A DNA stretch of 30,739 nucleotides from positions 1 through 30,739 of IMG/VR virus record IMGVR_UViG_3300010296_000047; one strand, given 5' to 3'. Positions 10,744-23,490 of this stretch are shown here, one piece after another. The position numbers and the translations under genes were made by a program. A model generated the notes under the pieces. The model searched no databases. It was not told the origin of the DNA and saw nothing but the letters and a program-made list of their open reading frames with translations. Numbering within the stretch: position 1 is the stretch's first letter; every line of letters starts with the position of its first letter. This DNA is from a virus.

Positions 10744-13700
10744 ATGGCGATACCTAGTCCCAGTCTTCTTGCTAAACTAGAAGAAGAAGAAAGAAAAAAA
10801 GAAAAGCTAAATGAAACTGAAACCAAGCAAGAAACTACAGAGAAAAAAAGTATTCTTGCGGACTTAGCTCGTGTTGGAATAGATACCTTAGAGCAAGTTC
10901 CTAATATTGGTATTGATTTATTAACTCTCGGTGGTCAACCTCCGCACTACGTAGTAGGTGAAAGTAAGGCTCCAACTGAAGAAAGCAAAGAAAATCTTAA
11001 ACAAGATAGTCAAAAAGCTAAGAAAGCTGTAAGAAATTTTATGGTTGATTCTTTGGTTGAGCCGTTCCGTATGTCTGGTTTTACTGAAACTGCGGACAGA
11101 ATAAAAGAATCTATTATTGATAAAGAAGGAAAAATAAAAAAGACTGAAACCGTAACAGGCACTGCTGCTTCTCTAGTTCCGTATATTATGGGCGGTACAA
11201 AGATATATAGTAAGCTAAGTGAAGAAGGCGGTAAAATCCTACGCGGTGCAAAGGCGGGTGCGATCACTGACCAACTACTAGCTGACACTCAAGAAGGCGA
11301 AGGGAATTTATTCAATGTAATTGCAGAAGTCCTGCCGGAAAACGGAGCAAAAACCGTTGCTGAGTATATTGCTTCTGACGAAGAAGACAGTCAAGTTGTT
11401 GAAAGAATTAAGCTTCTAGGAGAAGGGACAGCAATAGGTGGGCTTGTTGATATACTGGGCGGCACAGTTAAAGCAGGTCAAATAGCATATAAAAACTTTA
11501 AGAAAAAATTCCCAGACTTAACCGATGAAGAAAGAGGCGAAGCCTTATATTTATATTTAAAAGATGCCAAAGAAACAACTGATTTAAGAGCCCCTGAAGA
11601 TCAAGTAGTATTTACAGAAACTCCAAAAGGCGCTGCACAGGTTCAGCTACAAGCAAATAGCAAGATAAATAGATTTATAAATCGTTTTTTAACGACTAGA
11701 GGTTTCTTTACTCCAAAGGCTTACAATGCCTTTGAAGACTCCCAGTATGCTCAGCGACAGGTTATTGCAAAGGCAGAACACATTGCTAATAGACTTCAAG
11801 ATGCTTTAAATAATATATCGGAAACTAAAGAAGGTCCAGAAATATTTAAATCTGTTAATGATGCTCTTACTGCAGATCTTAAATTTGTTCGTGGTTTAGA
11901 GCTTAAAGATAAAATAAGTGATATTGCAAATGAATTTAACCTGCCTAAAGATGTTGCTGAAGAAGTTCTCAATGCTCGTGAATTAATTGATGACATGTCA
12001 AGACAGCTTGTTGGGTCTAGCGCGGTAAAAGACTCATTGAAAGAAATAATCGTAGAGAACTCTGGTCACTATATGCGACGTTCTTATCGTTTGTTCGAAG
12101 ATTCTGGATATTCGCCAGACGAAAAAGTTCGTTTAGACGCAGAAGATTACTTAACTAATTTAAACCTTAACCGTGACCCAAACTTATCTGAGACTTTTGC
12201 ACGACAGCAAGCAAAAGATCAAATAGATGAAATATTAAGTTCAGGAAGTGCTTCTGAGTTTTCGGATTACTTTAGTGCTGTACGTAAAGTAAATAAAAAT
12301 ATTTTAAAACAAAGAGAAGATATCCCAGACCCTATTAGAGCTTTGATGGGCGAAGTAAAAGAGCCTAGCGAAAATGTAATTCTTACTGTTAGTAAAATGG
12401 TTAACCTATTAGAAACTAATAAGTTCTATCAAAACTTAAATAAGTTAGGAGAGTCGGGCGGCTATATATTTAAAGAAGGTCAGCCTAGAGACAATAAAAT
12501 TTTTAGTGCTAAAATTACCGGCACTAATTCTGTGTTAGACGGTAAGTACACTACACCTGAAATATTGTCTGAAATACAAAACAATACTTCTAGATTCTTC
12601 AAAGGTGACAAGCTTGGTTGGTATAAAAACTTCTTAACACTTAAAGGAACATCTCAGAAACTAAAGACTGTATTTAGTCATGTTACACATATTCGTAACT
12701 TTACGGGTGGTGCTCAGTTTGGCGCAGCTAATGGCGTAAATCCTTTTGGTGGCGAAGCTCGTCAAACTTTTAAAACTTTGCGAAACTCTGTTCTTCAAGG
12801 CGGTAACAAAGAGCTTGATGCTTTATATGAAAAGTATTTAAGACTGGGTATTATTAACACAAACGTAAGAGTTAATGAATTTAGAGATCTTTTAAACGTA
12901 GGCTATGAATCAGGTGTAGATACTTTAGGAGACAATATATCTAAAAAACTACAAAGCTATGGTATTTCTAAAAACAAACAGCAGCTTGTAGATAATATCT
13001 ATGTAGCTACAGATGATTTTTACAAAATTAACTACTACAACCAAGAGCTTGCAACTTTAAGAAAACACATGCCTGAAGCCCCTATTGAGGTTTTAGAAGA
13101 ACGGGCTGCCGATATAGTACGTAATACTATGCCTAATTATGATCGAGTTCCTAAAGGCATTAAAGCTTTGAAAGAGCTTCCTGTAGGTAGTTTCTTTTCA
13201 TTCCCCGCTGAAATTATAAGAACTAGTAAAAACATTGTTAAACAGTCGGCCAAAGAAATGCTTTCAGGTGTTGAAGGTATACGAGGCAGAGGCGCTAGAA
13301 GACTTGCAGGATTTACTGCTACCACTTCAGGGTGGTCCGGTTTAGCTGCAACTACTGCCCATCTTGCAGGTTTTGGCGAAGAAGAACAGAAAGCAATTGC
13401 AATTCTAAGCGAGACTCCGTGGTCTAAAGATTCGCCTCGTAACGTACTTCGTGTTGAAGATAAAATATATACAAACGATACACAGTTTGTAGACAGCTAC
13501 AGCGTTATTAAAGAACCGTTTAGATCTGCGGCTAGGGCTTATGCAAACGGAGAAATTAACGAAGAAGATTTTGATAAGAAGATACTGGATTCGACAGGCG
13601 CGTTTGCCTTTAATTTATTTAGACCTTATATAGACGAAGCTATTCTAACTGATGCTTTAACTGATGTAATGTTTGCAGCTATAAGCTCTGATGGAAGAAC

Positions 13701-16302
13701 TTCAAAGGGTAAAGAAATATTTACTCCGGGCCTAACTACATCGGAAAAAACAGGGAATCTCATTACGCATTTGGGACAGACGTTGCTCCCCGGAAGTGCT
13801 TTAAGTATTAAATCTTTAATAGATGCCGCATTTGAGCAACCTAATAAGAACACAGGAAAAGTTAAAAATGTTAACGCTGAGTTAGCTGCAAACTTAACAG
13901 GATTTAAATTTCAAGAGTTAGACGTAGAAAATATTTTACGTTTTGGTGTTTCAGATTTTAAAAGGGCTTCTCAAGACATAATCAACGTCGGTGTTAATTA
14001 TAAAAGATCTGGACAGGATTTGGTAGCTCGTTACAAACAACGACAAGAAGCAAAACTAAAGCTATCTCAAGATCTTTATAGAAAAATAAACGCTTCTGAA
14101 GTTTTAGTAGGCAGGAACGACACATATAGATATTTAATTTTAAACGGTTTAAGCAAAAAAGAGGCGGCCTTTTTTATGGCGGGTCAGTTTAAACCTGACA
14201 GACCTGACAAGTCTTTATTGTTGTTGATGAACGATAAAACAACATTTAAATCAGACGAGACACTCGGTGAAACGTATAAGCAAATGATGACCCTTTACGG
14301 TGATTTTATGCGGACTGAGTTAATAGCTCCTATTGAGCTAAAGGAAGAAGACGAGTCTGTACAAAGAACTAAAAAGGTTGAGGGAGGCTTAGTAAGCGAG
14401 TTAGTTCCTAATGCACCTAAAAACCCTTCTGCGCGTATTAACAAGCAAACCGGCATACCTTACGCAGAGGAAGCCGGTCCTGCGTTTATGGATGAGCTAA
14501 ACCCTATACGTAATCTTAAAATGGCTCATGGTGGTAAAGTACGTAGCCGCAGATACTCAGGAGGTCTTATAGCTAAAACTTTAGGTATTAAAGGTGCAGA
14601 TCTAGAATGGGCTAAAAGCCAACGCAAACGATATTCAAAAGAAGAAGCTTATGATGGTAAAGGTGATGCCGCAGCTCACTTAGCTTTAGGGTTTATCACG
14701 CAAAGATCTAAAAACCCTAAAGCAGCTTTAACGGCTGCAAACATTCGGGAATACGTGACAATGGATACTGTCGGTAGACCTATGGACATTCATAACAATA
14801 ACTTAGGAGCTAAGATTAAAGCTAAGACTTTAAAGGAAGCAGAAAAAGAAATTGATCGTTTGATTAATGAAAACGAAGCTAAGTTTATGACACCTTCTGA
14901 AAGCAAAGAAAGACGTAAGTATAGTAAAGGTCAGCTCGTTGGAAAAGTTATAAGGTACTTTGCTGATAAAAAAGAATCAGGTTTATTTAGTAAGGCAGAA
15001 AAAGAAGCCGGAAACTTGGATCAAAAAGAAGGTACAGGCGATGTAATGCTTAAAAGGCTTCGAGATAAAGGCGTTACTGACGAAGAGCTAGAATGGACTG
15101 GAGCGAAAGATAAGTTTGCTGCTAAACCATCTGTAACTAAAGAAGAGCTTCAACAGCACTTTAAAGAGACTGACTTTGATGTTGAGACCAAGAAAGGTAC
15201 TGTAGGAGCCCACGATACTGATGCACCTTCTTTTGAAGATATTGCAGATCTGTTTGAGGAAGACCCTGAATTTGCAACGATACAATGGCTTCGAAACAAC
15301 TCCCCCGGAGAGCTTGAAGGTATAGACGATCTAAGCGATGATGCTTATGAAGCGTTAGTGGAATCAGTCTTTAAACGGATAGAGGAACAGGAAACAGGGA
15401 AGGGAATCGGTGGCGGTTTTGACTTTACAGCTAACAGACAGCATCTAGACTATGCTTTTGAGGGCAGTAACACTAAAAATTATAGAGAAATAACAGTGGC
15501 TCTTCCTGAAAGATTTAAAAAAATTGATGAAGATTTCACGCACTCACATTTCCCTACTCTTAAAAACTTTGTGGCTCACCTACGTTTAGCGGACGTTAAA
15601 CCTAAAGACGGAGACAGTAAGGTTCTTTTAATTGATGAGATTCAAAGTGATGCTCACCAGAAAGCTAAGGGTTCCTACATTACTAAAGAAAATGTAGGCA
15701 CAAATAAACTCACATCTGAAGAAGTTACTGAGTTAAAAGATAAAAAGAAAGAGCTTGTTGAGCAGTTACAGAAAATAGACAGCTATTATGAAGATGGCAT
15801 TTTAAACAAGGCTGAACATGTAGATAATAAAAAACGTGTCAGGGCTGAGATAAGTACCATTAACGCTTCTCTACCTCCAGAAGTTCCAGATCTTCCGTTT
15901 AAGAACGAAAAGAAATGGGCACTACTCGGCTTAAGAAAAGCAATGATTGAAGCAGCTGAGGGTGGATATGACGAGGTGGCACTAACTACTGGTCGTCTGC
16001 AAGCACAAAGAAACCAACAGCTTGAAGTCGTTGATGGTGTAGAAACTGGTGGAGAAAAGATGAAGCAGTTCTATGATAAAACTCTTATTAAACTTTTAGA
16101 TAGTAACTTTGCTAAAAAGTATGGTGTTAAAATTGAACTAAAAGAAATAATGCAGAACGGTGAACCAATTAAACTACCAGTAATGCAGGTAACAGATAAG
16201 ATGCGTAAAGACATACTAAAAGGTTTACCTATGTTTGCAGAAGGTGGCTTAGTAGCTTCAGAGGTATTAACAAATAAACTAAGGAGTAACAATGGAGTTT
16301 AA
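10744..16302 (+). CDS. Giant ejected internal virion protein with polyvalent-protein-like C-terminal modules, 1852 aa
   Basis: By position and size it is the counterpart of the largest podovirus internal core protein (T7 gp16). The N-terminal 130 residues are charged. Short hydrophobic stretches near 138-155 and 228-245, and a block around 800-870 (GSFFSFPAEIIRTSKNI, then WSGLAATTAHLAGFG), suggest membrane interaction. After a linker with MAHGGKVRSRRYSGGLI, residues 1283-1390 carry DAAAH (1308-1312) and MDIHNNNLG (1347-1355), a DUF6973-like pattern. Residues about 1560-1840 carry NYREI, HLRLADV, LLIDEIQSDAHQ (1628-1639), a GGYDEVALTTG motif and MRKDILKGLPMF. This matches the IQSD-type domain of large polyvalent proteins in phages and mobile elements, which are thought to enter the cell with DNA. 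There is no visible lytic transglycosylase domain as in gp16. The start follows AAAGGAA; the 3' end overlaps the endolysin by 11 bases. Confidence 0.65.
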   Translation: MAIPSPSLLAKLEEEERKKEKLNETETKQETTEKKSILADLARVGIDTLEQVPNIGIDLLTLGGQPPHYVVGESKAPTEESKENLKQDSQKAKKAVRNFMVDSLVEPFRMSGFTETADRIKESIIDKEGKIKKTETVTGTAASLVPYIMGGTKIYSKLSEEGGKILRGAKAGAITDQLLADTQEGEGNLFNVIAEVLPENGAKTVAEYIASDEEDSQVVERIKLLGEGTAIGGLVDILGGTVKAGQIAYKNFKKKFPDLTDEERGEALYLYLKDAKETTDLRAPEDQVVFTETPKGAAQVQLQANSKINRFINRFLTTRGFFTPKAYNAFEDSQYAQRQVIAKAEHIANRLQDALNNISETKEGPEIFKSVNDALTADLKFVRGLELKDKISDIANEFNLPKDVAEEVLNARELIDDMSRQLVGSSAVKDSLKEIIVENSGHYMRRSYRLFEDSGYSPDEKVRLDAEDYLTNLNLNRDPNLSETFARQQAKDQIDEILSSGSASEFSDYFSAVRKVNKNILKQREDIPDPIRALMGEVKEPSENVILTVSKMVNLLETNKFYQNLNKLGESGGYIFKEGQPRDNKIFSAKITGTNSVLDGKYTTPEILSEIQNNTSRFFKGDKLGWYKNFLTLKGTSQKLKTVFSHVTHIRNFTGGAQFGAANGVNPFGGEARQTFKTLRNSVLQGGNKELDALYEKYLRLGIINTNVRVNEFRDLLNVGYESGVDTLGDNISKKLQSYGISKNKQQLVDNIYVATDDFYKINYYNQELATLRKHMPEAPIEVLEERAADIVRNTMPNYDRVPKGIKALKELPVGSFFSFPAEIIRTSKNIVKQSAKEMLSGVEGIRGRGARRLAGFTATTSGWSGLAATTAHLAGFGEEEQKAIAILSETPWSKDSPRNVLRVEDKIYTNDTQFVDSYSVIKEPFRSAARAYANGEINEEDFDKKILDSTGAFAFNLFRPYIDEAILTDALTDVMFAAISSDGRTSKGKEIFTPGLTTSEKTGNLITHLGQTLLPGSALSIKSLIDAAFEQPNKNTGKVKNVNAELAANLTGFKFQELDVENILRFGVSDFKRASQDIINVGVNYKRSGQDLVARYKQRQEAKLKLSQDLYRKINASEVLVGRNDTYRYLILNGLSKKEAAFFMAGQFKPDRPDKSLLLLMNDKTTFKSDETLGETYKQMMTLYGDFMRTELIAPIELKEEDESVQRTKKVEGGLVSELVPNAPKNPSARINKQTGIPYAEEAGPAFMDELNPIRNLKMAHGGKVRSRRYSGGLIAKTLGIKGADLEWAKSQRKRYSKEEAYDGKGDAAAHLALGFITQRSKNPKAALTAANIREYVTMDTVGRPMDIHNNNLGAKIKAKTLKEAEKEIDRLINENEAKFMTPSESKERRKYSKGQLVGKVIRYFADKKESGLFSKAEKEAGNLDQKEGTGDVMLKRLRDKGVTDEELEWTGAKDKFAAKPSVTKEELQQHFKETDFDVETKKGTVGAHDTDAPSFEDIADLFEEDPEFATIQWLRNNSPGELEGIDDLSDDAYEALVESVFKRIEEQETGKGIGGGFDFTANRQHLDYAFEGSNTKNYREITVALPERFKKIDEDFTHSHFPTLKNFVAHLRLADVKPKDGDSKVLLIDEIQSDAHQKAKGSYITKENVGTNKLTSEEVTELKDKKKELVEQLQKIDSYYEDGILNKAEHVDNKKRVRAEISTINASLPPEVPDLPFKNEKKWALLGLRKAMIEAAEGGYDEVALTTGRLQAQRNQQLEVVDGVETGGEKMKQFYDKTLIKLLDSNFAKKYGVKIELKEIMQNGEPIKLPVMQVTDKMRKDILKGLPMFAEGGLVASEVLTNKLRSNNGV

Positions 16303-16639
16303 ATATTTTAAACTGTCAGACTTTAACTGTCAAGAGACTGGCGAAAATGAAATGGATATCGAGTTTATTAGAAAGCTAGATCAGCTTCGAGAAAACTGTG
16401 GGTTTCCGTTTATTATAACTAGCGGATATAGAAGTAAAAATCACAGCATAGAGGCGCGAAAAAGTGTTCCGGGCACACACGCCCGTGGGATTGCCGCAGA
16501 CATCAAAGTCTCTGGAGGCTCTCAAAGATATCAAATAGTTAAGAACGCACTTGCTATGGGCTTTACAGGCATTGGAGTAGCTAAGACTTTTATACACGTA
16601 GATACTAGAGATAGCTATCCAGTAATGTGGAAATACTAA
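16292..16639 (+). CDS. M15 family peptidoglycan peptidase (endolysin), 115 aa
   Basis: A compact zinc D-Ala-D-Ala / L-Ala-D-Glu-type peptidase expected to cut peptidoglycan cross-links or stems. The Peptidase_M15_3-type signature is complete: SGYRS at 44-48, H63-A-R-G-I-A-A-D70 (zinc ligands His and Asp), and I-H102-V-D104 (third zinc ligand and acidic residue). The length fits the single-domain family, with no cell-wall-binding domain and no signal peptide, so it needs a holin for export. It starts 11 bases inside the giant virion gene with AAGGAG at 16281-16286. Its stop overlaps the next start (TAATG). The signal-peptide and holin genes downstream fit a lysis block. Confidence 0.88.
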   Translation: MEFKYFKLSDFNCQETGENEMDIEFIRKLDQLRENCGFPFIITSGYRSKNHSIEARKSVPGTHARGIAADIKVSGGSQRYQIVKNALAMGFTGIGVAKTFIHVDTRDSYPVMWKY

Positions 16640-17265
16640 TGTTTCGTATTTTGTTTTTGTTATCTATGTCTGTGGCTGTATTAGCGGACAACGCTCAGGA
16701 AGGTAGTTTAAATACTTTTCACGGAAACAATAGCACGACTAATAGTAACAATACAACTACAGATACATCTACTAGCAACACATACAATGGGGCAGGGAGC
16801 AGCTCTGAAATTCCAGTAGGGTCTGCGATCTCCCCAAGCTACATGTCTAACGGTCAAGACACTTGCTTAAAAGGCGAAGGCGGTTCATTACAGACAGTAG
16901 GTGTAGGCATCTCTAGCGGTGCATACGAGGTTGACCCTAACTGTGATAGACGTAGAGATGCTAAGCTGTTGTCAGACTTAGGTATGAAAGTTGCAGCAGT
17001 ATCGAGAATGTGTGAGTCTTTAGAGGTTTGGAAAGCTATGTTAATGTCAGGTACGCCCTGTCCAATACTGCAAAACTCTAGACTAGTAGCAGGAAAGCGA
17101 GCGTATTTAGCTCTTAAAATGCAGCCTGAGATTTACATCCCAGACTATAACCGCAAAACTAAAGAATGGTACGACACTATTCTAAACATTGGAGAAACTG
17201 TAAATGAAGAACAAGCTGAAGATATTATCTCTGTTAGCGCTAAGTTCCGTAGCAGCAGCAAGTGA
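16639..17265 (+). CDS. Exported phage protein with signal peptide and four Cys, 208 aa
   Basis: I chose the ATG at 16639, which overlaps the endolysin stop (TAATG), over the in-frame GTG at 16627. From there the protein begins MFRILFLLSMSVAVLADN, a normal signal peptide with likely cleavage after VLA (residue 16). A Ser/Thr/Asn-rich linker (27-57) follows, then a folded part with Cys at 76, 102, 125 and 141 and the pattern AKLLSDLGMKVAAVSRMC. Cysteines plus export suggest a periplasmic, disulfide-bonded protein. No lipobox is seen, so it is not an obvious outer-membrane spanin. Similar Cys-patterned proteins occur, in my memory, in other marine phages without known function. Its 3' end overlaps the next gene by 62 bases. 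Confidence 0.6.
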   Translation: MFRILFLLSMSVAVLADNAQEGSLNTFHGNNSTTNSNNTTTDTSTSNTYNGAGSSSEIPVGSAISPSYMSNGQDTCLKGEGGSLQTVGVGISSGAYEVDPNCDRRRDAKLLSDLGMKVAAVSRMCESLEVWKAMLMSGTPCPILQNSRLVAGKRAYLALKMQPEIYIPDYNRKTKEWYDTILNIGETVNEEQAEDIISVSAKFRSSSK

Positions 17266-18043
17266 GTTAGATAACTTACTAAGCACTTCTACTGCTATTG
17301 TAAATCAAATTGATACAGGTACTACACTTGTAGGTGCAGCTACAGAATATGCACATCATGGTGATGCACTAAGTGATGGAAGTTTATCATCTACAGCACA
17401 TATCAGCACCGAACAGCTTGATGCTTATAACGCTGCCTTAACTGATTTTGCTACTAACTATCAGCCCTATGGAGACCTTACGGCTGTATTAGAATCAAAA
17501 GCAGCGACTGAAATAAGTCTAATGAATAGTGCCGTAGATACATTTGCTGAGGTTGTGGTTGAAATGGTTCAAGTAGTAGAGCTGACAGAAAAAATTGATG
17601 CGGCTCTTACACCTGCAAACGAAGAAGAAGTTCAAACATTTGTATCTGACAATATAGAAGTCTTACAAATAGAACAAGAAACTGTTGATACCTACAACCA
17701 GTCTGTAGATGATATTGAAACCCACGCTAACAACGCTTCAGCTTATTTAGCTGTGGCAAACTCCGAAGATGCAGTGGCTTTTTTAGAGCAAAGTATTGAA
17801 ACCGCTAACACTACAGCAGAGCAAACTAGTATTATGTATGATGCGAATCAACAGTGGGTGACGATGGGATACAACACTACACGAAACTTAACAGCAGTTT
17901 ATTTAAACGGTGTAGATGATATAGGTATAGATTTGTATGTAACTGAAGCAGACATATTAGCGGTAGGTAGCGACTCGGAGTTTTATCTTACTGGTCCTAC
18001 AGCTTTAGGATATAAATGCTTTATGACAGGAGAATGTGAATGA
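17204..18043 (+). CDS. Exported helical protein with signal peptide, 279 aa
   Basis: The N-terminus MKNKLKILSLLALSSVAAA is a clear signal peptide with likely cleavage after AAA (residue 19). The mature part is acidic and predicted helical (long Glu/Ala/Thr-rich segments such as VVEMVQVVELTEKIDAAL), with few aromatic residues. It ends in a small Cys pair (KCFMTGEC). The start codon lies 62 bases inside the previous gene, with GGAG at 17191-17194. The signal peptide is therefore encoded in a region that also encodes the tail of the 208-aa protein. Its stop overlaps the next start (ATGA). It may act in the periplasm during lysis, or modify the envelope; the function is unknown. Confidence 0.6.
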   Translation: MKNKLKILSLLALSSVAAASELDNLLSTSTAIVNQIDTGTTLVGAATEYAHHGDALSDGSLSSTAHISTEQLDAYNAALTDFATNYQPYGDLTAVLESKAATEISLMNSAVDTFAEVVVEMVQVVELTEKIDAALTPANEEEVQTFVSDNIEVLQIEQETVDTYNQSVDDIETHANNASAYLAVANSEDAVAFLEQSIETANTTAEQTSIMYDANQQWVTMGYNTTRNLTAVYLNGVDDIGIDLYVTEADILAVGSDSEFYLTGPTALGYKCFMTGECE

Positions 18044-18523: not shown

Positions 18524-18928
18524 ATGTTAAATTTAAATTCATTAGTGGGACCTGTTACAGGATTATTAGACAAATTTATAGAGGATAAAGACAAGAAGAA
18601 TGCGATTGCGTTTGAACTATCGACAATGGCTGAAAGACACGCGCAGGAACTTGCGAAAGCGCAAATTGAAGTTAATAAGACAGAAGCGGCACACAAGAGT
18701 TTATTTGTGTCGGGTTGGAGACCGGCTGTTGGTTGGACTTGTTGTCTTGGACTTGCGAGTAACTACCTTCTTATCCCGATGGCAAATTTTGCGCTTGCTC
18801 TTGCCGATTCTGCCATTACGGTCCCTATATTAGATATATCAACAATGATGCCAGTGCTTATGGGTATGCTTGGATTAGGTGCTATGAGAACTGTTGAAAA
18901 AGCAAAAGGCGTAAGCCGAAACCAATAA
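18524..18928 (+). CDS. Three-transmembrane-helix holin (Holin_3TMs type), 134 aa
   Basis: A hydrophilic N-terminal helix (residues 1-63, with ERHAQELAKAQIEVNKTEA) leads into SLFVSGWRPAVGW (64-76), then hydrophobic segments through about 70-122 and a final GMLGLGAMRTVEKAKG. The SLFVxGWRP entry and the LGMRTxEK-like exit are the hallmarks I know from the Holin_3TMs family of phages and prophages. It would make holes in the inner membrane to release the M15 endolysin. It has GAGGAT at 18515-18520, and lies 7 bases after the coiled-coil gene and 18 bases before the first of the basic proteins. Confidence 0.82.
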   Translation: MLNLNSLVGPVTGLLDKFIEDKDKKNAIAFELSTMAERHAQELAKAQIEVNKTEAAHKSLFVSGWRPAVGWTCCLGLASNYLLIPMANFALALADSAITVPILDISTMMPVLMGMLGLGAMRTVEKAKGVSRNQ

Positions 18929-18946: not shown

Positions 18947-20428
18947 ATGCCATATAAAAAGAAAGCCCCTGCCAAGAAGCGTACCAAAAAGGCTGTGGGC
19001 GGTGCTCTAAGTGCAGCACAGAAACGACTACTAGGTCAAGCTCAAGCCGGTGCAGTTAAGAAAGGCGCAGGAGCTATTACAAAACAAATTGTAAACTATA
19101 CCCGTAAACACGGAGACCAACGAAAAGCTGCAGCAGCACCTGCAAAACGTAAAGCCCCTGCAAAACGTCCGAACCTCGGTCGTATTAAAGTCCCTGCGGG
19201 TACTAAAGCTCCACTAAGTCGTGGAACTAAGGGACCGGCAAAACGTGGCGGCATTGCAATGTCTAAAACAGCTAGACAAACTCTTGCACAAAGAGCCGCA
19301 GCTAAGAGACGTAGCCAGTCTAAAGCTAGAGCAGGTCTTGGTCGAGATCAGAAGAGACTATTAAGTGCAGCTCAAAAGTTTGCAATTAAACGAGGTAAAG
19401 GCACTAAGGCAATTAACAACTACACTAAGAAGTACGGTCTAACTAAAGCGGCTAAACAAGCTGCAATGAATAAACTACGTAAGCGTGTAGGGCTTAAGCC
19501 TAGAACAACTACAGGTCGTCCGACTACTGGTTCACTCAAGCAGCGTATAACTAGTCGTAGTGGAACAGCGGCTCAACGCAGAGCGCGAGCGTTAGCAGCA
19601 CGTAGACGAGCAGCAATGGCAGCACGTAGAAAAAGACCAAGTAGAGGTGGCCCAACATATACTCGTATGCCGGTTAAGCGTAGACCTGCGGTTGGTTCAG
19701 GCGGTAGTCGTATGACACCTGCTCAAAAAAGACGAGCAGCAATGCGTAGAGCTATGATGTTAGCACGTAAGCGTAGAGCACCTTCGCGTAGACGAGGACC
19801 TACACGTAGAATACCTACAACACGTAGAGCGCCTACAAGACGTAGAGCACCTACTCGTAGTTTAAGAGAGCGAAGAGCTATGGCAGCAGCACGTAGACGT
19901 AGACAAGCTTCTGGAACAGCTGTAGCGGGTAGAGGCAGACAGCAGCGCTTTATCGGTGGTCTACTCAAGAAGTTTATTGCAAAAGGCGGGGTGAAAAGAA
20001 CAAACACAAACCCAATGAGAGCTAAACTCACAGGAGGCCGCTTAAAGAAACGAGGAATCTTAGGTAAGACTCGCACAGGTATTGGTCGTAAGAGAAGAGT
20101 AGGCATGGCTCCTCGTAAGAGCGCTTACAAGTCTCGCGGATTGTTTGGGCGCATTAAAGCAATGTCTAAGAGAACATCTGGCAGCCGCACCGGTAGCGGT
20201 ATTTTTAGTCGTATGAGAGCTAGGAGCGCACCAAAACCTATGACTTCTCCTAAGGTTCGGGCTATGACTTCTCCAAAAGCTCGTCGAGCGATGACTAAAC
20301 CTAAAGACCCATACGCTACAACAAGACGTTCAGACCCTTACGGTAGAAAAACGACACGTACTCGACATCGTAGAAGTGCGGGTATGAAGAGTTATATGAA
20401 CGTTATGAATAAAGCAATGAAAATGTGA
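18947..20428 (+). CDS. Extremely basic H1/protamine-like protein, 493 aa
   Basis: By my count the protein has only five acidic residues, no Cys and no Trp, with long runs of Arg/Lys/Ala/Pro/Thr. N-terminal APAKK / KAPAKR motifs resemble histone H1 tails, and the 270-330 region has RRAPSRRRGPTRR and TRRAPTRRRAPTR, protamine-like. A motif of about 35 residues is duplicated: residues 21-57 and 131-165 both read (S/D)xxQKRLL...AQ...A.K.G.G...I.NYT.K.G. This suggests two small folded units within disordered basic tails. It would be expected to bind and neutralise DNA or RNA; whether it is packaged in the virion, binds host DNA or acts otherwise is unknown. It starts after AGGAGA at 18933-18938 and is followed by three more basic genes. 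Confidence 0.7.
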   Translation: MPYKKKAPAKKRTKKAVGGALSAAQKRLLGQAQAGAVKKGAGAITKQIVNYTRKHGDQRKAAAAPAKRKAPAKRPNLGRIKVPAGTKAPLSRGTKGPAKRGGIAMSKTARQTLAQRAAAKRRSQSKARAGLGRDQKRLLSAAQKFAIKRGKGTKAINNYTKKYGLTKAAKQAAMNKLRKRVGLKPRTTTGRPTTGSLKQRITSRSGTAAQRRARALAARRRAAMAARRKRPSRGGPTYTRMPVKRRPAVGSGGSRMTPAQKRRAAMRRAMMLARKRRAPSRRRGPTRRIPTTRRAPTRRRAPTRSLRERRAMAAARRRRQASGTAVAGRGRQQRFIGGLLKKFIAKGGVKRTNTNPMRAKLTGGRLKKRGILGKTRTGIGRKRRVGMAPRKSAYKSRGLFGRIKAMSKRTSGSRTGSGIFSRMRARSAPKPMTSPKVRAMTSPKARRAMTKPKDPYATTRRSDPYGRKTTRTRHRRSAGMKSYMNVMNKAMKM

Positions 20429-20438
20429 GGTAACGTTT

Positions 20439-20621
20439 ATGCCCACCAAGAAAAAATCTACAGTTAATAAGGCAGGAAACTATACTAAACCCGCAATGCG
20501 TAAGAGACTGTTTAATAAAATTAAAGCAGGAACTAAAGGCGGCAGAGCAGGTCAGTGGTCAGCTAGGAAGGCTCAGATGTTGGCTAGAGAATATAAGAAA
20601 GCAGGTGGAGGTTACAAGTAA
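20439..20621 (+). CDS. Small basic phage protein with GQWSARKAQML motif, 60 aa
   Basis: The sequence contains AGNYTKPAMRKRLFNKIK and GGRAGQWSARKAQMLAREYK, a motif pair I recognise from many phage and some cellular small proteins (a DUF5872-like family, from memory). Function is unknown. It is highly basic, with one acidic residue. It starts after GTGAGGT (20426-20432), 10 bases after the large basic protein, and overlaps the next gene by one base (TAATG). In the family this segment is commonly found beside or joined to the type of sequence encoded by the following gene. Confidence 0.7.
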   Translation: MPTKKKSTVNKAGNYTKPAMRKRLFNKIKAGTKGGRAGQWSARKAQMLAREYKKAGGGYK

Positions 20622-20869
20622 TGGCAACAACACTACGTAAACCACAAAGATCTTTGAAGCGGTGGACAGCTCAGAAGTGGACTACGGCAAGCGGCAAGAA
20701 GTCTTCAAAAACTGGTGAAGTATATGCACCTAAAAAGACTATTGCTAAGCTGAAGTCCACTGCTGCGGGTAGAAAGAAACTGGCAGCAGCTAATAAAAAG
20801 AAACGACAAGCCACCAGAAAGGGTAAGCAACACGCCCGACATGGCTTACATAAGGGGAAGAAACGATGA
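20621..20869 (+). CDS. Small basic phage protein with SLKRWTAQKW motif, 82 aa
   Basis: The N-terminal half has SLKRWTAQKWTTASGKKSS and the middle GEVYAPKKTIAKLKSTAAGR. This W-x2-[KQ]-x-W-x4-GK pattern is one I associate with the same small-protein group as the preceding gene. The C-terminal third is an almost pure Lys/Arg/His tail. The start overlaps the previous stop (TAATG) and follows GGTGGAGG (20604-20611); the stop overlaps the next start (ATGA). A nucleic-acid-binding role is likely from charge alone; the actual function is unknown. Confidence 0.68.
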   Translation: MATTLRKPQRSLKRWTAQKWTTASGKKSSKTGEVYAPKKTIAKLKSTAAGRKKLAAANKKKRQATRKGKQHARHGLHKGKKR

Positions 20870-21150
20870 AAAAGAAAGACCCGCGATTAGCTAGAGCAGG
20901 TGTATCTGGGTTTAATAAACCTAAGCGTACACCTAACCATCCTAAGAAGTCTCATGTGGTTGTCGCCAAAGTAGGCGATAAAATTAAAACGATTCGATTT
21001 GGTCAGCAAGGAGTTAAGGGAGCAGGAAAGAATCCCAAGACTGCTAAAGATAAAGCCAGAAAGAAGAGTTATTATGCAAGACATAACGCACAAGATAGCA
21101 AGCCTTCTAAGTTATCTGCGCGTTACTGGTCGCATAAAGTTAAATGGTAA
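20866..21150 (+). CDS. Small basic conserved phage protein, 94 aa
   Basis: It begins KKKDPRLARAGVSGFNKPKR, continues with TPNHPKKSHVVVAKVGDKIK and TIRFGQQGVKGAG, and ends with SYYARHNA and ARYWSHKVKW. This order of motifs is one I recognise from marine phages (a DUF6321-like protein, from memory), of unknown function. The [KR]SxxARH...ARYWS tail may be a small metal- or nucleic-acid-binding unit. It is the last plus-strand gene, coupled to its upstream neighbour by ATGA overlap, and ends directly before the convergent junction. Confidence 0.72.
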   Translation: MKKKDPRLARAGVSGFNKPKRTPNHPKKSHVVVAKVGDKIKTIRFGQQGVKGAGKNPKTAKDKARKKSYYARHNAQDSKPSKLSARYWSHKVKW

Positions 21151-21400: not shown

Positions 21401-21635
21401 GGTTCAAAGCGCACAGTTCGTCTTCTAAGAACTTATGCATCTCCTGTAGTTTAGGCTTAGCTAGGCGTATAATGGATCGCATGATTTCTAGTTCTTCCCC
21501 CTTAAAAGCTTTGTGTAAATCCTGCTCAGGGATGCCTGACATTTCTGTCACGACATTCCCCTCGCTGTTTATTAACACTTGAAAGCCTACAACAGTAGCT
21601 TCCTTTTTCTTTTTAAACAATCTCACAAGCGCCAC
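21387..21635 (-). CDS. Hypothetical small protein downstream of the reductase, 82 aa
   Basis: There is no ATG start. The frame opens with GTG at 21635, or with a second GTG at 21626 (79 aa, beginning with RLFKKKKEATVVGF), which is preceded by GGTGG at good spacing; the latter would give a 14-base overlap with the reductase stop. The product has a basic N-terminus, a short beta section (VVGFQVLINSEGNVV) and a helical C-terminal half. No family recognised. The overlaps on both sides support it as a translated operon member. Confidence 0.6.
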   Translation of the reverse strand: MALVRLFKKKKEATVVGFQVLINSEGNVVTEMSGIPEQDLHKAFKGEELEIMRSIIRLAKPKLQEMHKFLEDELCALNHAKG

Positions 21636-23490
21636 CAGTACACGCTAACTCTTGCGAGCCTGTGGTATTGTCATCTTTCTCAAAGTTTTCAAGATCAGTC
21701 CAGTCAATATCTTTAGGCATTGCCTTGACAAGCTCGTTGTATTTCTCTTTGTCTATAGCCTCATACGGTGCTTGTTGATACACATGATCGCTGACAGGAA
21801 GTAAACTAATACCGGACACTGTATCGAAGTTATCCCATATCCACTGAGCAACTTGTAAGAACTCATCGTCAGTGTAATACACAGTAATACTAGGCTTATG
21901 CTCACACCAAAAGTCTTGATACTTCTTCCATAGCTTAAGCTGCTCCATCGCTCCTACGTCCTTAACTACTACGCTTTTAGCGGGTGCTTTAACAGGGAAG
22001 CTAAACACTAAGCTAGACTTATTCATTACGTCTGGTTCAACAGGGAAGCCTACCGTTTCCATATATTGAGCAAGTGGGTCCTTTTTGTCAGAACGGACTC
22101 TGCGAATATAATGATTGCTAAAGCGGGGATGGATACCACTAGCGCTATCAACAAGTTGAGAAACAGTGCCGCTAGGCTTAACACAAGTAATAGCTGCAGA
22201 CTGGTTAATGCCAAGCTTCGCAGCCCACTTTTTATTTGTTTTAACAGCAACATCTTTCATCTCCGTTAGCCATTTTTCTAGTTGAGGTGAATCAGAACTT
22301 AACACATGATGATCGCAAATACCTGTCAGGCTTACACCCAACAGTGCTTCTTCTTCTGTGTTTCGTTTCCAAACATTTCTAAGATATCTAAAGTCTGTAA
22401 GAGTAGCCTGAAGAGTACCAATAATCGAGGCAACCTCTGTTTTTCTTTTAAGACTTTTAAGATCATCGTCGTGGCGAATAACTATCTCAGACAGATTACA
22501 GAACTGATTGCTTCGCAGGATAATCTCAGAGCATGGGTTAGTTCCAAAGTCCTGCTCAGGGTCTCTACGTCCGTTCCTAGCCGCTACTTTCTGAGCAGCC
22601 ACCCTGCTAAAGATACCGCGCTCTCCTGCCTTGCTGTCGTACATGGTGTGCATCTCAGACAAGTAAGATTCAAAGTCAGGCTTCTCTGTGTACGATACAC
22701 TGTTGTTAGCCAATGCTCTTTGTCCTTCATCCATCCACCAGTTACCTGATTTAGCTTTAGCCATACGAGGATCTGATAGATTAGAAAGAGAGATAAGGGC
22801 TGATCGTCTTACACCGCCTACAACTACAATCTCTGCAATCTTACACACTACATCGTGGCATTCAATGCTTGTTAGCTTACGACCTGCTGCTTTCTGGAAG
22901 ATGCCAACACAGAAGTTAAATAAATCTTCAAGAGGCTCAGGACCACTAGCACGACCGCCAAAGGTCTTAAGTCTTTCACCTGATGGGCGTACTTTGTGCA
23001 TATCCCATTTAGGTATCTTACCTGCGTACAGAAGACTTATAAGCTCTTTGAAGGCTGAAGCCCATCCAATCTTACTGTCGGCAACCACAATCACGGTGTC
23101 CGTTGGATGAAACTCTTCTGCAACTTCAGGTAGTTTGTTGATGAATGCTCGCTCTACACTGAAGCCCACTCCTGTACCGCACATAAGAACGTACATAAGT
23201 TCATCAAAGCTTCTTGGAGAATCAATATGCAAGTAGCTGCAGTTGAATCCCGCCACATTATCTTTATCTAATGCCTCACCCGCTGTCATAAGACAACGCA
23301 TAGATGGCATTACTTCTAAATTAAAGATAGCGTTAAACAGTTTAAGGGCTGTCTTCTCATCTATCTGCCCACGATCTTTCCAGAAGTCAACATATCTGTT
23401 GACCGTTTCGTCCCATCGCTCTCGTCTGCCCTCTTCAGGAAGCCAACGAGCATATCGGGACTTATGTATGAATTGTTGATATTGGTCCAT
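21613..23490 (-). CDS. nrdJ: Adenosylcobalamin-dependent class II ribonucleoside-triphosphate reductase, 625 aa
   Basis: It converts ribonucleotides to deoxyribonucleotides for phage DNA synthesis, using a B12-derived radical. Motifs match the monomeric Lactobacillus leichmannii RTPR type. PSMRCLMTAG (62-71) precedes FNCSY with C84 of the active-site disulfide. N318-P-C320-S-E322 carries the thiyl-radical Cys and catalytic Glu, and C331 is the disulfide partner, with the same 11-residue spacing as 408/419 in RTPR. The C-terminus has the redox shuttle pair C617-x4-C622. At 625 residues it is shorter than the about 740-residue reference, with about 50 residues fewer between C84 and C320. It starts after AAAGGAATTTTAA. 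No second subunit (nrdB) is present, as expected for class II. Confidence 0.93.
   Translation of the reverse strand: MDQYQQFIHKSRYARWLPEEGRRERWDETVNRYVDFWKDRGQIDEKTALKLFNAIFNLEVMPSMRCLMTAGEALDKDNVAGFNCSYLHIDSPRSFDELMYVLMCGTGVGFSVERAFINKLPEVAEEFHPTDTVIVVADSKIGWASAFKELISLLYAGKIPKWDMHKVRPSGERLKTFGGRASGPEPLEDLFNFCVGIFQKAAGRKLTSIECHDVVCKIAEIVVVGGVRRSALISLSNLSDPRMAKAKSGNWWMDEGQRALANNSVSYTEKPDFESYLSEMHTMYDSKAGERGIFSRVAAQKVAARNGRRDPEQDFGTNPCSEIILRSNQFCNLSEIVIRHDDDLKSLKRKTEVASIIGTLQATLTDFRYLRNVWKRNTEEEALLGVSLTGICDHHVLSSDSPQLEKWLTEMKDVAVKTNKKWAAKLGINQSAAITCVKPSGTVSQLVDSASGIHPRFSNHYIRRVRSDKKDPLAQYMETVGFPVEPDVMNKSSLVFSFPVKAPAKSVVVKDVGAMEQLKLWKKYQDFWCEHKPSITVYYTDDEFLQVAQWIWDNFDTVSGISLLPVSDHVYQQAPYEAIDKEKYNELVKAMPKDIDWTDLENFEKDDNTTGSQELACTGGACEIV

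Follow-up and report, generated by a model that had tools for sequence, protein, structure and literature searches.

A recurring B-C(-D) gene module and a lineage-restricted polycation at the end of a phage late operon

The late operon of the marine phage contig analyzed here ends with four genes, A, B, C and D, which encode extremely basic proteins. B and C go closely together as one unit, which D accompanies often but less strictly, and the B-C(-D) combination recurs in phages as a module. A is a lineage-restricted, fast-changing and indel-rich polycation, and it is conserved chiefly in its N-terminus and its charge. The explanation that we favour, at about an even chance, is that B, C and D are capsid-interior, DNA-associated proteins to which A was added as a lineage-specific polycation; presence in the virion, DNA binding and the role of A are the inferred parts of this explanation.

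Layout and charge of the gene cluster

The window, by which the whole analyzed stretch is meant, comprises 30,739 bases of a virus record and is a partial contig, in which no TerL, portal or MCP gene was found. Its plus-strand late block encodes large structural-type proteins, an M15 endolysin and a holin, and its minus-strand replication block encodes a ribonucleotide reductase, endonuclease I, endonuclease VII, a family A DNA polymerase and a primase-helicase. The nearest relatives of the polymerase are those of pelagiphages HTVC115P, HTVC103P and HTVC104P (44-47% identity). The two blocks meet convergently, and A, B, C and D close the late block. The features are as follows:

16292..16639, plus strand: M15-type endolysin in the same operon as A-D (PF08291, 3.6e-13; phrog_894 endolysin, 2.8e-33)
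18524..18928, plus strand: holin GTA_holin_3TM, immediately 5' of A (Pfam PF11351, 3.1e-19)
18947..20428, plus strand: A, 493 aa, open reading frame confirmed
20439..20621, plus strand: B, 60 aa (phrog_17747, 1.1e-36)
20621..20869, plus strand: C, 82 aa (phrog_14910, 2.2e-15)
20866..21150, plus strand: D, 94 aa (phrog_7595, 5.9e-34)
21613-23490, minus strand: ribonucleotide reductase, convergent with D (near-threshold match to the B12-dependent, class II, insertion domain)

An earlier note on this DNA had described four tightly packed reading frames of 493, 60, 82 and 94 residues at the end of the late operon, and their coordinates, spacing and overlaps bear this out. A and B are separated by 10 nt, B and C overlap by one base (TAATG), and C and D overlap by 4 nt (ATGA). 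Ribosome-binding-like sequences precede A and B. A scan for promoters and terminators gave no convincing operon-end signal, and a terminator-like site directly past D is absent. The gene after D is r82, which lies convergently on the minus strand and is followed by the ribonucleotide reductase gene.

The extreme Lys/Arg content that had been reported for these proteins was confirmed by composition. A contains 62 Lys and 91 Arg, only five acidic residues (four Asp and one Glu) and no Cys or Trp, which corresponds to 31% K+R, 1% D+E, a net charge of +148 and a pI of 12.0. The net charges of B, C and D are +17, +27 and +24, respectively, and those of the remaining checked window genes range from -120 to +14. 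Of the 3,428 other called genes of the fetched loci, only approximately 1% reach 0.30 or more in net charge per residue; this control overstates the background because these loci were chosen for these very genes and are themselves rich in basic genes. The charge cluster at the end of the late operon is real.

Two consecutive proteins with signal-like N-termini (positions 16627-18043), of 212 aa and 279 aa (net charge of the latter -37), lie between the endolysin and a 158-aa coiled-coil-like protein. Both are strongly acidic, unlike the basic cluster downstream, and they are possibly spanin-like or secreted lysis components. Further upstream (10744-16302), a protein of 1852 aa matches internal virion and virion structural protein families in its N-terminal part and has a sub-threshold match to DUF6973.

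Protein A as a lineage-restricted polycation

The duplication of a motif of about 35 residues in A (residues ~21-57 and 131-165), which had been proposed earlier, is real: when residues 1-110 were aligned locally with the remainder of A, the top score was 116, compared with a mean of 62, an SD of 8.3 and a maximum of 92 in 500 shuffles. The middle of A is rich in Arg. Searches with A gave no match in Pfam, PHROG or phage records, so its relatives are limited to three viral contigs, L007, L008 and L009, and the L008 protein is identical to that of L007. The duplication is present in the window and in L007/L008, and it is not clear in the shorter relative from L009. In every relative, A is located between the holin gene and B. 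The proteins of the window and the relatives are 300, 457 and 493 aa long, with net charges of +89, +133 and +148, respectively. They have the N-terminal ~75 residues in common, and most of the remainder keeps its charge and composition, not its sequence. The dN/dS of A against L007 and L009 is 0.44-0.74; indels are numerous, and the alignment is uncertain.

It is a real possibility, although short of an even chance, that A is functionally unconnected to its neighbours and is a lineage-specific, low-constraint basic reading frame inserted between the holin and B-C-D. This would concern A only and is compatible with any reading of B, C and D. The restriction of A to the relatives in L007, L008 and L009, its dN/dS and indels, and related phages in which the holin is followed by B or D with A absent all fit such an insertion. 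Nevertheless, A has stayed intact at 300 to 493 aa, always in the same slot and with its charge and N-terminus kept, and Synechococcus phage S-CRES1 has, at the corresponding position, a basic gene unrelated to A. Under the favoured explanation, A would be a probably disordered polycation added to B, C and D in one lineage, and it could locally neutralize the DNA inside the head, or take effect in the first few minutes once the DNA has been ejected.

Large cationic virion proteins associated with DNA are known from eukaryotic viruses, namely ascovirus P64 (PMC6163548) and chlorovirus A278L and A282L (PMC3281028). Like A, they are large (about 50-70 kDa), rich in Arg and Lys and of very high pI, and P64 also has repeated motifs. 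With its few acidic residues, A fits a P64- or protamine-like polycation by composition, and by composition only. These are proteins of eukaryotic viruses for which no sequence relation to A has been shown, and the DNA binding and condensation of P64 are experimental findings, whereas those of A would be predictions.

B and C as one unit and the recurrence of the module

The small proteins had been described as members of recurring phage families, which agrees with the matches of B, C and D to phrog_17747, phrog_14910 and phrog_7595. B has an invariant core (GxW-S-x-RKAQ...YKxxGGGY). A scan with B alone found 80 loci, of which 48 have enough flank for a neighbour count. In these viral loci, C was located within 1.5 kb of B in 48 of 48 cases, and D was also near in 24. 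Among the 16 distinct isolate phages with B, C was found in 15 and D in 7. Isolates that carry genes of this module include HMO-2011, CRP-603 and S-CRES1, as well as HTVC115P with B and C and P12053L with D only. Moreover, 55 reading frames are B-C fusions, in which B is the N-terminal half and C is the C-terminal half. The idea of one four-gene system therefore holds in part: B and C keep a fixed order and are often fused, and D is often near, but A occurs in only three contigs and D often occurs without B and C, so the four genes are not a conserved set. Under the favoured explanation, B and C would be the two halves of a DUF5872-like protein and would act together.

Pfam DUF5872 (PF19197) was matched by 23 of the 45 fusions scanned (best 4.2e-8), a count that is not split by the curated cut-off of 27.5 bits. 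The fusion in L094 aligns over both halves, along nearly the whole profile (positions 2-110 of 116, E 0.014), and the L095-type protein passes the cut-off with 27.6 bits. Window B alone and C alone gave no DUF5872 match in Pfam scans. The window thus has the two DUF5872-like halves in the order of the fusions, yet as two overlapping genes. Because the fusions in relatives match DUF5872 while B and C singly do not, the window most likely carries a split form of a DUF5872-like protein, as judged from sequence. Purifying selection on B, C and D is strong, with dN/dS values of 0.04-0.12 against L007 and L009 (B alone 0.05-0.12). PDB sequence searches with the profiles of B, C and D found no match, and a PDB fold search with the B-C model gave nothing significant. 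A weak Pfam match of C relatives to CAP-ZIP_m was set aside as chance or sub-threshold.

The layout of the window is repeated, but in a cyanophage, by S-CRES1, in which a lysozyme gene is followed by genes for a 107-aa basic protein (+29), a B-C fusion (+33) and D (+21). The 107-aa protein, gp96 (L328:17631-17954), is unrelated to A and fills the A-like slot between lysozyme and fusion. In Vibrio phage D274 and Celeribacter phage P12053L, D is the last gene of its block and convergent genes come next. The position beside lysis genes, which had been read as fitting virion loading, is found in the window, with the holin and endolysin upstream, but elsewhere it is one of several: the genes occur at the end of the late operon, after the portal gene, after the MCP gene and near TerL.

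Protein D and the head-assembly genes

The late character claimed for the genes is borne out, and D repeatedly lies beside head-assembly genes or is fused to their products. D directly follows the portal gene in 72 loci, 50 of which have TerL two genes upstream and in which MCP most commonly lies seven genes downstream, and it directly follows MCP in 9; these counts are not independent because many loci are close relatives from one query, and most of the portal-type loci belong to a single related group. When the scan was made with D alone and loci with 2 kb on both sides were kept (n = 43), a recognized head gene was found within 2.5 kb in 16, a B/C or DUF5872-like gene in 25 and another strongly basic gene on the same strand in 30. 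A clustering control with random small genes of the same loci was rejected as invalid, as the loci had been selected by these very genes. Non-redundant neighbour families include TerL, portal, head-tail adaptor, MCP and endolysin. In L095, the order is portal, D, a basic gene, a DUF5872-like gene and, further on, scaffold and MCP. More broadly, marine phages of L095 and L250-L327 have portal, D, at least one basic gene, a DUF5872-like protein, scaffold and MCP in this order.

A fusion links D to a predicted prohead protease. ICP1 ORF125 (Gp125), which was named a presumed scaffold protease (PMC9040626), adjoins the scaffold gene and has a Peptidase_S78_2/XkdF domain (6.6e-10), and a D domain makes up its C-terminal ~80 residues (hhalign 97.5%, E 5.6e-12); D itself lacks the protease domain. 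In addition, a match to phrog_220 ('minor head protein and DNA pilot') was found for 18 of the 22 D members (best 9e-20), although D covers only positions 534-604 of its 1338. We take SPP1 gp7 to be the best-studied protein of this name, and phrog_220 would then be of the SPP1 gp7 type, going by the family name. SPP1 gp7 is bound to the portal, is carried by it into the procapsid interior, binds DNA and supports infection (PMC6316719). Either gene can follow the portal gene; however, D is without the rest of the protein, and portal binding is known for gp7, not for D.

The model of D is confident (pLDDT 87.8) and has a helix, a beta hairpin and two helices. A PDB fold search with it found nothing significant. 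Among BFVD folds, it matched phage proteins, including one named XkdF, one ChaB and ICP1 ORF125, as well as Tunisvirus V9SE36 (prob 1.00, TM 0.58, E 0.012) and, more weakly, CeV A0A0N9R3E1 (prob 0.89), the last two being compared by fold. In sequence, D resembles Tlr6F/DUF5754 (PF19058) at a sub-threshold level: the weak similarity covers residues 21-73 and stays below the cut-off (14.1-15.6 versus 27.4 bits; E 0.0016 for the one record at 14.1 bits, and 15.6 bits in the Pfam scan), and 7 of 22 D members show it (best 4e-4). Weak Pfam matches of D to DUF6321 and 'Phage_tail_tube_init' were set aside as chance or sub-threshold. Tlr6F, a family without known function, has been described as conserved across nearly all of the polinton-like viruses, and also in several virophages, in many giant viruses and in some phages (PMC4642659). 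DUF5872 likewise has no known function. D differs in that it is linked here to the head genes of tailed phages.

According to the favoured explanation, B, C and D would act at the head-assembly stage, as small folded proteins that are expressed late and bind nucleic acids, with the Tlr6F-like domain of D as a procapsid-interior module. They could enter with the scaffold, the portal or the DNA and end up inside the capsid alongside the genome. There they could contribute to its packaging or arrangement, or accompany it on delivery. This reading is based on the adjacency of D to portal and MCP, its fusion to the prohead protease and its match to phrog_220, together with the pairing and fusion of B and C, the head-gene neighbours, the S-CRES1 layout and the purifying selection on B, C and D. 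Several points count against it. No PDB match gives D or B-C a DNA-binding fold, D also occurs in non-head neighbourhoods, as in HTVC008M, and the window genes follow lysis genes, far from any recognized head gene. Furthermore, one paper (PMC3281028) reports no evidence in tailed phages that basic proteins neutralize much of the phage DNA. A literature search of openly readable main texts for virion proteomics of phages with these genes found none, and complete proteomics of ICP1 virions had not yet been made at the time of PMC9040626.

The proteins could instead serve a late takeover of the host, in which all four, unpackaged, cover or condense the nucleoid of the host or associate with its RNA or ribosomes. 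Their high charge, the late operon, the neighbouring holin and endolysin of the window and gene positions that are not tied to the head module in all phages would suit this role. We consider it rather unlikely, since the portal- and MCP-adjacent D, the D-prohead protease fusion and the place of D in a minor-head-protein profile point to head assembly. Alternatively, D, and perhaps B-C, could act only in the procapsid, for example by binding the core or scaffold, and leave or be degraded before maturation, with A being separate. The C-terminal D domain of the ICP1 scaffold protease and D genes beside scaffold and MCP genes are in line with this, but D also stands alone without a protease domain, and its strongly basic charge fits nucleic acid better than scaffold binding; we judge a purely assembly-stage role to be unlikely.

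The new element in these results is a pointer to the head interior for proteins of the Tlr6F-like and DUF5872-like kinds; it is not a phage protamine. A concrete and testable lead to a head-interior role for Tlr6F comes from D, which is fused to the prohead protease in ICP1 and neighbours portal and capsid genes in other phages. If B, C and D coat packaged DNA, they would challenge the view of tailed-phage heads as lacking basic DNA-binding proteins (PMC3281028). The listed proteins of the algal giant virus Chrysochromulina parva virus BQ1 include both DUF5872 and DUF5754 members (PMC12085832). It is conceivable, though we think it doubtful, that tailed marine phages possess nucleoproteins of the capsid interior, a set made up of a split DUF5872 protein, a Tlr6F-like domain and sometimes a large polycation, as part of a genome-packing or delivery toolkit common to giant and polinton-like viruses, across viral realms. 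If true, such a set would exist in a group thought to do without basic proteins on its DNA. As a minor observation, relatives of D are annotated as 'HVA1 family protein' in the Roseobacter phages CRP-901 and CRP-902 (OQ401623.1, OQ401624.1), whereas the D of the window gave no match of this kind.
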